Assembly (NCBI GenBank): GCA_000739535.1
Contig: DF820468.1
Location: 96,543-139,728 of the forward strand
Length of the DNA stretch: 43,186 nt
Reading direction: 5' to 3'
Source: Candidatus Vecturithrix granuli
Lineage (GTDB): Bacteria > Moduliflexota > Moduliflexia > Moduliflexales > Moduliflexaceae
In this document: positions 22,944 to 26,489 of the stretch, piece after piece
Numbering within the stretch: the stretch's first letter is position 1
Layout of the letters: each line of letters opens with the position of its first letter
The notes under the pieces: generated by a model
Told to the model about the DNA's origin: nothing
Database searches by the model: none
What the model saw: the letters and a program-made list of their open reading frames with translations, nothing else
Position numbers and translations under genes: made by a program

Positions 22944-23192
22944 TTACGAACTCGGCAGGTAACACTTTGAAAGTCTCGATCTTATTTCAATCAGGCTCAA
23001 TTTCGAAAAACCTGATTTCCCGAGGTGTTTAGTCACGTGCTTTCCGCAGCGTTCAATCTTGACGGAAAGCTGCTTGTGGCTGGAATGGCTGGAGATTAAA
23101 TCCACTAAAATTTTGATTTGCGATAATGCCTGATGTGATCGACAGGTATTACGTAAACGCTGCCTCAAATCATTTATCTGTACAAAACCCAA
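22944..23192 (-). CDS. Possible small basic protein, minus strand
   Basis: An open frame of up to 82 residues reads LRQRLRNTCRSHQALSQIKI and later KHVTKHLGKSGFSK, rich in Lys, Arg, His and Ser. It ends 13 bases before a strong minus-strand terminator, which is the main reason to list it. The start is unclear: only TTG codons are available (23192 or a few codons later) and none has a clear ribosome site. It may be a decayed gene or an untranslated RNA. It occupies most of the gap between the sigma-region-4 gene and the exported hydrolase gene. Confidence 0.25.
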   Translation of the reverse strand: MGFVQINDLRQRLRNTCRSHQALSQIKILVDLISSHSSHKQLSVKIERCGKHVTKHLGKSGFSKLSLIEIRSRLSKCYLPSS

Positions 23193-23206
23193 AAGGAGAG
23201 TGTGTT

Positions 23207-24232
23207 ATGAAAATATACAGACAAGGGATATTTTTTACGATACTCATGATGCTCGCGCTGAGCATCACCTTTCCCGGTTTTTGTCAAACCACCACTCCGC
23301 CGACCTCGCCGGTGCGGCTGATTTTTATCCACCATTCCACTGGCGGGCACTGGCTGGCAGCAACCCCCAGTGAATACGGACCGTCTGGCGACCTGGGAGA
23401 AGCCTTGATGAACAACAACTACTATGTCAGCGCCACGAATTACGGATGGGGACCAGATGGCATCGGTTCAAGAACAGATGTTATCAATTGGCCGGAGTGG
23501 TTTACTGGCCCCAATCGGAATACCATTATGGCGGCAGTGTATGCCGAAACCGGTCAGAATATCAGCGGCGACTATGGGTCATTCGGAGATTGGCCCCGGC
23601 TGGCGACAAATCCGGGCGGGGAAAACCAGATTATCATGTTCAAATCCTGCTTTCCGAACTCGGATATCTATGGCAATCCGACCGATCCTCCGGCCGCTTT
23701 GCCCAACGATGAAATGACGGTCGCCAACTTCAAAGCCGTGTACAATAACATTCTCCAGTATTTTGCCACCCGGCAGGATAAGCTGTTTGTGGTGATTACC
23801 GCGCCGCCCATGTCAGAAGCCGGCTATGTGAACAATGGTACCGAACCGCCGGCCGCAACACGCGCCGCCAATGCCCGCGCATTTAACAATTGGCTGGTGA
23901 ACGACTGGCTGGATGACTATGCCTACAACAATGTTGCAGTCTTCGATTATTACAACGTGCTCACCAGTAATGGCGGCGATTACGATACCAATGACGCCGG
24001 ACGGGCGACCGGTAATCACCATCGCTGGTGGAATAATCAAGTGCAGCATGTTCAGGGCCTGGTCAACAATTATTCGGCATACCCGACGGATGAGATTTAT
24101 GGTTGGGATGATCACCCCCGAACGGCGGGGCAGCAGAAAGCCACCGCGGAGTTTGTGCTGCTGCTCAACTATTTTTACAACCGCTGGAAGGGTAGCAGTG
24201 CCACATCCTCGTATCTATTGTGGACAAAATAG
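23207..24232 (+). CDS. Exported SGNH-type hydrolase-like protein ending SYLLWTK
   Basis: A 341-residue exported protein. AAAAGGAG precedes ATG 23207. The first 25 residues are a signal peptide (KIYRQG, a hydrophobic run, then PGFCQ). The mature part starts RLIFIHHSTGGHWLA, followed by GDLGEALMNNNYYVSATNYG, and ends with DDHPRTAGQQKATAEF, a DxxH-like block as in SGNH/GDSL hydrolases. The first block would hold the nucleophile Ser (HHSTGG) in that reading. Family assignment is from pattern only. The C-terminus is a short Ser-rich linker and SYLLWTK, identical to the end of the convergent neighbour. Confidence 0.65.
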   Translation: MKIYRQGIFFTILMMLALSITFPGFCQTTTPPTSPVRLIFIHHSTGGHWLAATPSEYGPSGDLGEALMNNNYYVSATNYGWGPDGIGSRTDVINWPEWFTGPNRNTIMAAVYAETGQNISGDYGSFGDWPRLATNPGGENQIIMFKSCFPNSDIYGNPTDPPAALPNDEMTVANFKAVYNNILQYFATRQDKLFVVITAPPMSEAGYVNNGTEPPAATRAANARAFNNWLVNDWLDDYAYNNVAVFDYYNVLTSNGGDYDTNDAGRATGNHHRWWNNQVQHVQGLVNNYSAYPTDEIYGWDDHPRTAGQQKATAEFVLLLNYFYNRWKGSSATSSYLLWTK

Positions 24233-24244
24233 GCCGTGTTAAGC

Positions 24245-24273
24245 TGTCCGACGTCCAAAGCGGCCGTCGGACA
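24245..24273. terminator. Bidirectional hairpin between convergent exported-protein genes
   Basis: TGTCCGACG (24245-24253) and CGTCGGACA (24265-24273) form a 9-bp stem in the 49-base gap between the convergent genes ending at 24232 and 24282. There is no long T run on either side. Confidence 0.6.
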
Positions 24274-24281
24274 ACGTGTTA

Positions 24282-26489
24282 TTATTTCGTCCAGAGCAGA
24301 TAGGAATTTGACGCTGCGGCTGAGACTTGCCATACGTGGATCACCGGGTTTTCATACTCTATGCCATCTCCATACGCCCGATTTTCTGCCATATACAACA
24401 GACCGTGTGTTTCATCAAACGCCACTTCGCCCACCACGTTACACAATTCTTCGAACGCATCTTCCGTGATCGGCTTAAAGAGTACATGGCTCACATCCAG
24501 CGCCGCATACGGCTGCGGTCCGTAGGGCTGTTGACTGCCTTGCGCCACTGCCGCCAAATCCGCCGGATCGTAAAACAGGAACAGGCCGTCATGACTGTTC
24601 GCTATCGGGCCTTTTTCACCATAGACGCCATAAGCCGGTTCGAACTCCGGGACCAGCGGCAGAATATCATCGTAATAGCGCGTCCCATCCCGATAGCCGT
24701 ACCAGGTTTCGCCAAACGCTTTGGACGTGGAGATCATCACGGCGGCTTGACTGCCGGCGCTGAGCCATTCGGCCCCGCGGTAGCGGCTGCCGTCATCCTG
24801 GATAAAGCCGTCCACATAGTGCGTACCGCCATCATTGTCATACCGCAGCAGCGTGATATAATTCAAGGCCGCGCCGGCGGCCGGCCAGGGGGTGCCGTCC
24901 ATCCAGGGCGCAATGGCATACAGCGCCGGACCATGCGGCCAGTTGCCATAGCGCGAATTGCCGGTCAACAACGGGCGGCCTCCGGTATAGGCGTCGGCCC
25001 AACTCTGAGGCGCAGCAAACATGTAACGGGCCAGGGTATTGAACGGCGGATTATTCCCCGCCACAGGACCAACAGACCAGGCGCCGACCGGATTGGTGAG
25101 ATTCAGGTCACAGGCGCCATTGGTGACTTTCTTTTGATCCGGATAGTAGTAGTCGCCGAACGCCGTGTACAACTTGCCGGAAGTCTGCCCCGATTGCGCA
25201 GGCAAGTATTCCAGCGCGGCGCCCATGGCAAGATACGGCTCATCCGGATATGCAGGGGGGTAGTGAATATTGGCCGGCTTAACATCCGTGAAGTTCCGTA
25301 AAGTCGTGGCCGTATTCAGCTCATTCGGATTTTTCGTGGCGGAAATCACCGGAACCGGAATCCCGATTTCGGCCACATACCCATAGCTCTCTTGCTGGAC
25401 AAAACCGCTGAGATAGAGCGAGCCGGGATACGCGTCGGTATTGCCGGGATCGCCGGACGGATAATAGGCCAGATCCCCTTCCCGGTATGTCCAGGGATTG
25501 CTTACTAACGTGAACGGATGACCCGTATTCGGCGGCAGTTTAAACGCGCCGAGGTACTGGAACCCCGCAAACGGATTGATGACCGAACTCTTGCCCCGAT
25601 ACGAAGCGGTTGAGCGCGTAGCAGCATTGGACTGTCCGCTTTCATTGCCGAACCCATCGAACGCCGTCACTCTGTAGGTATAGGAGGTGGACGGCGTGAG
25701 CAGCGCATCAGTATAGCTGGTGGTGGACGAAGTGTTCACGAACAGACCGTTGCGATAGATGCGATAGTGCGTGACCGCTGTGCCATCGGTCGAAGCGTTC
25801 CAGGTCAAATTGATTTTGTTGTCGGGCTGTGTGGGATGCGCCGCGGTTGACAGGTTGGCAGGCATCGTCGGCGCAGTAATATCCGCCGCTGCCAATTCGA
25901 TTTTATCAATCAAAAGCCCCGCCTGAGTCGTATTCATGCAGACATTGACAATCGTATAATTCCCGGCGCTAGGCGGCAGATCCGTTGGTGCGGTGGAACT
26001 ATTCGTAAAATCGTAATAGGTCCGCACGGTCGCGCCAGGCGCAAATTCATTTATCCCGGCATGATAGGTCGCCAAATTTTTCATCCCATACCACCGCGGC
26101 TGACCAGGCGAGTTCACCGGCGAGTTGGCGTCCGTAAAACTGACCAGCGGCGTAAAATCCGACAACCAATTGCCTGAATTATTATACCAGGTGACGAGAA
26201 TGCGTTCACCGTACCCAAATGACCGGCTTATGCCTTGTACGCCCTGATAGTTGCTGTATTCACTGCCCGTCGTTTCCAATAATAGTCCGTCCGGGCCGAC
26301 GCTGGAATACGAGGTGGTTGGCGTCAGGTCTTTGAGTACAGTTGTCCAACCAGCCAGGCCAAACACATTAGCCCCGGCTGTGGCTCCAAAATCAACCAAC
26401 ACGCTTGCTGGAGCGTCTTGGTTCCACAAAAGAAGCGTCATCAGCATGAACACAACCACACGATACCATAAATTTCCTGAATGATTCAT
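24282..26489 (-). CDS. Exported FN3-domain protein ending SYLLWTK
   Basis: A 735-residue protein with a signal peptide (VVVFMLMTLLLWNQDAPAS). Residues about 30-210 resemble a jelly-roll carbohydrate- or cell-surface-binding module. A fibronectin type III domain covers about 212-300 (INLTWNASTDGTAVTHYRIY, then YTYRVTAFDGFGNES). The remainder, from FAGFQYLGAFKLP at about 310, looks like a propeller-type domain of unknown role with many aromatic residues and YDPADLAAVAQG near the end. It ends in AAASNSYLLWTK; the last seven residues equal those of the convergent neighbour. Only the signal peptide and FN3 are certain. Probably surface-attached or secreted. Confidence 0.75.
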   Translation of the reverse strand: MNHSGNLWYRVVVFMLMTLLLWNQDAPASVLVDFGATAGANVFGLAGWTTVLKDLTPTTSYSSVGPDGLLLETTGSEYSNYQGVQGISRSFGYGERILVTWYNNSGNWLSDFTPLVSFTDANSPVNSPGQPRWYGMKNLATYHAGINEFAPGATVRTYYDFTNSSTAPTDLPPSAGNYTIVNVCMNTTQAGLLIDKIELAAADITAPTMPANLSTAAHPTQPDNKINLTWNASTDGTAVTHYRIYRNGLFVNTSSTTSYTDALLTPSTSYTYRVTAFDGFGNESGQSNAATRSTASYRGKSSVINPFAGFQYLGAFKLPPNTGHPFTLVSNPWTYREGDLAYYPSGDPGNTDAYPGSLYLSGFVQQESYGYVAEIGIPVPVISATKNPNELNTATTLRNFTDVKPANIHYPPAYPDEPYLAMGAALEYLPAQSGQTSGKLYTAFGDYYYPDQKKVTNGACDLNLTNPVGAWSVGPVAGNNPPFNTLARYMFAAPQSWADAYTGGRPLLTGNSRYGNWPHGPALYAIAPWMDGTPWPAAGAALNYITLLRYDNDGGTHYVDGFIQDDGSRYRGAEWLSAGSQAAVMISTSKAFGETWYGYRDGTRYYDDILPLVPEFEPAYGVYGEKGPIANSHDGLFLFYDPADLAAVAQGSQQPYGPQPYAALDVSHVLFKPITEDAFEELCNVVGEVAFDETHGLLYMAENRAYGDGIEYENPVIHVWQVSAAASNSYLLWTK

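Follow-up and report, generated by a model that had tools for sequence, protein, structure and literature searches.

The heptapeptide SYLLWTK closes two unrelated exported proteins that are encoded convergently in a 43,186-nucleotide stretch of the Candidatus Vecturithrix granuli genome (the window, C16:96543-139728), and variants of it end at least 41 proteins of the same assembly. The data strongly support a genuine C-terminal tag that is enriched on exported proteins. We tentatively propose that SYLLWTK-COOH is a docking tag acting by strand complementation: after export, the tag would add a β-strand to P0002, an exported repeat protein whose first repeat appears to lack the corresponding strand. 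The tag itself is well supported; its receptor we infer from sequence comparison. The features concerned are collected in Table 1.

Table 1. Genes and tags discussed in the text. Positions refer to the window unless a contig is named.
Feature	Position	Strand	Description
Exported protein 1, tagged cargo	23126..24232	+	Open reading frame; signal-peptide-like N-terminus; stop codon TAG at 24230-24232
Tag SYLLWTK of protein 1	24209..24229	+	TCG TAT CTA TTG TGG ACA AAA
Gap of 49 bases separating the convergent stop codons	24233..24281	.	3' flank comparison
Tag SYLLWTK of protein 2	24285..24305	-	TCC TAT CTG CTC TGG ACG AAA
Exported protein 2, tagged cargo, fn3	24282..26489	-	Open reading frame; stop codon TAA at 24282-24284
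P0002	C19:5843-6925	-	Signal peptide; same repeats as P0001; adjoins P0001
P0001	C19:7178-10738	-	Signal peptide, beta-helix, choice-of-anchor-D, five ~48-residue repeats

The heptapeptide in the window and across the genome

The preliminary description of the window had noted the common ending of the two proteins, the different codons behind it and the Ser/Ala-rich linkers ahead of it. All three observations are confirmed: five of the seven codons differ between the two tags, and the linkers read GSSATS and SAAASN. The tag of protein 1 begins one codon earlier than described, position 24212 being the second codon and 24209 the first. The real start of protein 1 likely lies at 23207, from where the protein begins MKIYRQGIFFTILMMLALSITFPGFC. 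As for the different folds ascribed to the pair, protein 2 does contain an fn3 domain (PF00041, residues 223-288, E=1.5e-6), whereas the SGNH label given to protein 1 is unproven, since no Pfam or NCBIfam family was found for it. A tagged gene at C18:507593-508549, ending AHLLWTK, looks like a relative of protein 1, judging by eye from the HHSTG-type start common to both. Structure prediction without an alignment gave mean pLDDT values of 36 and 31 for the two window proteins and was not usable.

The assembly comprises 8.38 Mb in 21 contigs and is probably a binned genome because of its completeness of 93.8% and contamination of 10.75%. A strict DNA pattern, TAY-YTN-YTN-TGG-ACN-AAR-stop (YLLWTK-stop), matched 26 times genome-wide, against about 0.02 matches expected from a base-count estimate and 0 in the reversed control. 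Looser patterns and the reading of open reading frames brought the tagged proteins to at least 41, ending [Y/F/M/H][L/I/F][L/I]W[T/M][K/R/Q], and the motif is therefore not confined to the pair in the window. The last residue is K or R, rarely Q, in all 41 proteins. All 33 tags of the tightest pattern contain the W, as well as L at -4 and T at -2 when read as amino acids, and several codons are in use at every degenerate position. Because the codons vary freely, the comparison of these tags shows that the motif is held at the protein level. A stop-free [YF]LLWT-x pattern found 42 places, 37 of them the tag followed by a stop, two inside P0001 and three scattered elsewhere; no tag with residues beyond it was seen among the sequences read. 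The tagged genes lie on at least 10 contigs, which are broadly similar in base composition, and 16 of them form one same-strand block of 28 kb (C18:497060-525422).

Tagged proteins carry export signals far more often than other proteins of the genome, as scored by a simple home-made signal-peptide score rather than SignalP. A signal-peptide-like start was called in 32 of 36 tagged proteins compared with 105 of 353 nearby untagged open reading frames (p=3e-12). A signal peptide without further transmembrane segments was called in 30 of 41 compared with 150 of 967 open reading frames from an unbiased 1.2-Mb sample of the genome (p=2e-15), and 35 of the 41 were positive for the signal peptide alone. 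The association of tag and signal peptide remarked on in the pair holds for most of the set.

The likeness among the tagged proteins is limited to the tag, the remainder being non-homologous: 51 Pfam families are represented among the 39 proteins scanned, each in three members at most. The cargo families include papain, trypsin, clostripain, M28, GH8, GH114, CHAP, FG-GAP, SBBP, beta-helix, fn3, Calx-beta and others, and each of the three papain-family proteins detected in the genome carries the tag. The trypsin cargo aligns with solved trypsins over residues 40-270 of 283, after which comes PATSTNSYFLWTK, an alignment that shows the tag as an add-on to this protein. By this alignment and the Pfam diversity, the motif is not the terminus of some larger domain common to the tagged proteins. 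Cargo domains extend to within about 10 residues of the tag, which is preceded by hydrophilic linkers or the ends of domains. VIRK endings common to several proteins of the same genome served as a control and come with full-length paralogy.

Some side observations concern other sequences. VIRK was considered as a second tag (six signal-peptide-like open reading frames, eight with the VIRKK forms) and rejected as an ordinary case, a tandem array of eight paralogous, substrate-binding-like exported proteins at C17:46003-58913 that all end VIRK or VIRKK. A 37-codon fragment resembling a papain cargo, cut within its domain and ending NLLWTK-stop, lies at C12:92715-92751 and is perhaps a deletion remnant. 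Short exported Ig-like proteins (PF22544) at C20:183715-183984 (L178) and C19:115549-115824 (L185) of this genome (G000) and at C28:49116-49382 of genome G001 (L179) carry an in-frame TGA at equivalent positions, reading AKGG(TGA)GC..., LQSL(TGA)GC... and AKGG(TGA)GC..., respectively, which looks like selenocysteine standing in for the leading Cys of a CGC motif.

Outside this genome, the strict tag was absent from all 58 genomes scanned, among them one relative from the same family and two from the same order, and the looser pattern gave two chance-like matches in those three relatives. A collection scan of about 85,000 species required at least 14 specified bases, and hence CTG at one Leu codon, and returned nine stretches, all short chance frames. 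Since 15 of the 33 tags use CTG, that scan should still have picked up a genome rich in tags. Among relatives found by beta-helix, papain and choice-of-anchor searches, the C-termini read carried neither this tag nor another common one, and a literature search for YLLWTK, LLWTK and SYLLWT found nothing relevant. From these searches, the tag appears private to this genome.

Repeat proteins containing the same strand

The repeat unit of P0001 reads GYLLWARPAAEGKAVLWTLDAGGNFVNGKLYTAGPGYYATGFAHSGTN, with variants, and in both P0001 and P0002 its first strand follows (N)[SGA]YLLW[AT]R; a preceding N is common in tags and repeat strands alike. Scored against the tag profile, the strands TNGYLLWTR, TNSYLLWAR, TNAYLLWAR, SNGYLLWAR and TNGYLLWAR reached 16.9-23.1 bits, compared with 11.2 bits for the best internal 9-mer among the 350,855 9-mers of the unbiased sample. 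In the comparison with nearby open reading frames, repeat strands were likewise the top six matches. The poorer strands PQGRLLWAR and SNGYMIWAR scored 6.9 and 7.4 bits. The repeats had no match in Pfam, NCBIfam or PDB. They are probably four-stranded, and their number and length suggest a propeller-like fold.

The tag corresponds to repeat positions 1-7. Cleavage of P0002 is predicted between AYA and ATEGKAEIW, and the mature start aligns to repeat residues 9-48. The first repeat of P0002 is the only one without positions 1-8 (SYLLWARP), in whose place the signal peptide stands; given the inferred cleavage site, mature P0002 would lack the strand that the tag matches. Alternatively, P0002 could be a decayed copy of the array in P0001.

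P0001 itself shares a homologous domain with three tagged choice-of-anchor-D proteins and then continues as LLWAR-PAAEGSAVVW where these end in LLWTK or LLWTR followed by a stop. By this alignment, P0001 looks like a natural in-frame fusion of a tagged cargo with a receptor of the P0002 type. Such fusions are often read as a sign of interaction between the two parts. In a relative of P0001 on contig C14, only the last 57 residues remain (54% identity), and it ends PSYLLWTK.

The repeats were found in this genome only among the 289 genomes searched, which are fewer than those searched for the tag, and a single genome underlies the shared restriction of repeats and tag. A weak match to the repeats in genome G063 was discarded as a glycosyltransferase-like protein. 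There were no relatives of P0002 in viral contigs or plasmids.

Docking and the competing explanations

In the proposed docking, the tag would be a strand donated in trans, filling the one missing from the first repeat of P0002. The break in P0002 would fall in the turn ahead of the next strand, which would be why every tag ends at K or R, rarely Q. P0001 would represent the covalent version, in which a choice-of-anchor-D protein runs through LLWAR into complete repeats. An extracellular scaffold would thereby collect the cargo, which comprises proteases, glycosidases, beta-helix and propeller proteins. The candidate for holding P0002 there is its C-terminal domain of about 80 residues, which is common to P0001 (46% identity over 79 residues) and shows a weak likeness to InlB-B repeats.

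Strand donation would account for the fixed sequence, the end at a hairpin turn, the lack of an enzyme-type anchor and the private distribution. That the tag matches a strand which one of the genome's own repeat proteins lacks points to docking and not to enzymatic sorting. Against docking counts the single receptor gene for about 41 cargos, most of whose genes do not lie beside it. The fuller picture of split-repeat docking that evolved in one lineage, with a propeller-like receptor minus one strand, dozens of plugs and a fused gene adjacent, is possible and is offered here with reserve.

The main rival is that an outer-membrane translocation or anchoring machine reads the tag and its free carboxylate as a sorting signal, similarly to the final strand in a type IX C-terminal domain (CTD) or the C-terminal β-signal of outer-membrane proteins. 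The likeness to the repeats would then be incidental or due to shared ancestry. We regard this as somewhat less likely than docking. The strictly C-terminal position, with K, R or Q last in every tagged protein, and the strong enrichment of export signals would suit it. So would the choice-of-anchor-D domain, which the NCBIfam and Pfam scan placed on three tagged proteins and which is named for its occurrence beside different anchors. However, exosortase-type architecture is absent, and the one exosortase of this genome (PF09721) has counterparts in the three relatives of the order, all without the tag. In the neighbourhoods read, the genes beside the tagged ones include no recurring family, and an inherited machine should have left its signal in relatives or other phyla, where none was seen. 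Immediately upstream of the 16-gene cluster, and on its strand, are genes for VanZ-like (PF04892) and DUF401 (PF04165) membrane proteins (C18:525579-527444), which are possibly linked to surface biology; none of these neighbours recurs at the other loci read.

An unlikely explanation is that the tag has no address function and guides quality control or processing, for example by a periplasmic protease or chaperone of the PDZ type. DegS- and Prc-type proteins classically bind short hydrophobic C-termini, but the basic last residue is unlike the known PDZ and Prc ligands, and such a role leaves one fixed heptapeptide on unrelated proteins of a single genome unexplained. A reading of the tag as a relic of evolution, left where stop codons after strand 1 removed a repeat array, is very improbable. 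The tag does equal strand 1, and P0001 does keep an array at that position; yet the 36 flanks read contain no repeat remnant past the stop codons, and a relic would neither stop at the same residue in 41 proteins nor retain W, L and T under codon drift, so this reading is disfavoured. Spread as DNA, by a mobile cassette, duplication or assembly artefact, is barely credible despite the 28-kb block on C18, as the codons differ between copies, the cargo comes from unrelated families on at least 10 contigs of broadly similar base composition, and the 3' flanks are unrelated, among the 36 read as well as in the gap between the window genes, which speaks against readthrough or a mobile cassette.

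Should docking be real, the pair would be of a new kind, a natural counterpart of engineered split-protein tags and a ready seven-residue tag for protein assembly. It would also mean that one lineage can evolve a tag-receptor pair of its own without the transfer of a sorting machine. With P0002 as the candidate receptor, the docking idea is directly testable. If a sorting machine reads the tag instead, that machine would be new to the current list of known ones.

Comparison with known sorting and docking systems

We know of no address tag at the C-terminus of bacterial exported proteins that is anywhere near as short. The preliminary description had likened the motif to PEP-CTERM and type IX signals. 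We place it in the same broad class of C-terminal tags of exported proteins, as a new member that none of the tripartite or type IX kinds fits. The PEP-CTERM/exosortase, LPXTG/sortase, GlyGly-CTERM/rhombosortase and MYXO-CTERM/myxosortase systems resemble the tag in having a short C-terminal homology on many unrelated signal-peptide proteins, and a many-to-one pairing is expected for them, as here; their signals are tripartite, with a motif, a transmembrane helix and a basic cluster (PMC3237569; PMC11980579). The tag, by contrast, is seven residues long, has no helix and is itself the C-terminus, all 41 proteins ending directly in it. No curated C-terminal signal model was among the families listed for the 39 tagged proteins (NCBIfam and Pfam, with 25 of the 51 Pfam families listed). 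The PEP-CTERM comparison accordingly does not hold, with no transmembrane helix present and the single exosortase common to tag-less relatives. This genome does encode PEP-CTERM proteins (...VPEPATFFLIGSGLLGIGALVWRKRKQ) and one exosortase (region of C16:394675-395301, L104; C20:115600; C15:109318-110079), a separate sorting system beside the tag.

The CTD of type IX cargo spans about 80 residues and has an Ig-like fold. Like the tag, it is a C-terminal signal on exported cargo and has a short strand with a basic end. The comparison with type IX signals is nevertheless not supported, for no such domain precedes the tag; cargo domains reach to within about 10 residues of it, and the trypsin homology runs to residue 270 of 283. 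No Por secretion tail was among the families listed for the tagged proteins, and SprA (PF14349) had no match in genomes G000-G003, a search in which no control genome was positive.

A dockerin folds into a Ca-binding domain of about 60-70 residues. The proposed pair resembles dockerin and cohesin in that a C-terminal module on unrelated secreted enzymes would bind a repeat-bearing scaffold non-covalently; unlike dockerin, the plug would be a bare strand and the partner would lack that strand. The completion of one protein's fold by a strand of another is shared with chaperone-usher pili and with PilX-PilY1 of type IV pilus tips, where strand complementation occurs between subunits (PMC13190605). 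Those are subunit-subunit pairs, whereas here one strand would serve as a generic tag on about 41 cargo proteins. Recognition of a C-terminal tail by a propeller in protein trafficking has a parallel in progranulin, whose tail is bound by the sortilin beta-propeller (PMC3115958), although that system is eukaryotic, has one ligand and involves a tail that is not a missing propeller strand. Finally, P0001 and P0002, with five tandem and probably four-stranded units, fall in the length range of the 40-50-residue blades of tachylectin-2 and other newly amplified beta-propellers (PMC9218822), from which they differ in that their repeats have no Pfam or PDB sequence match and P0002 appears to lack its first strand.
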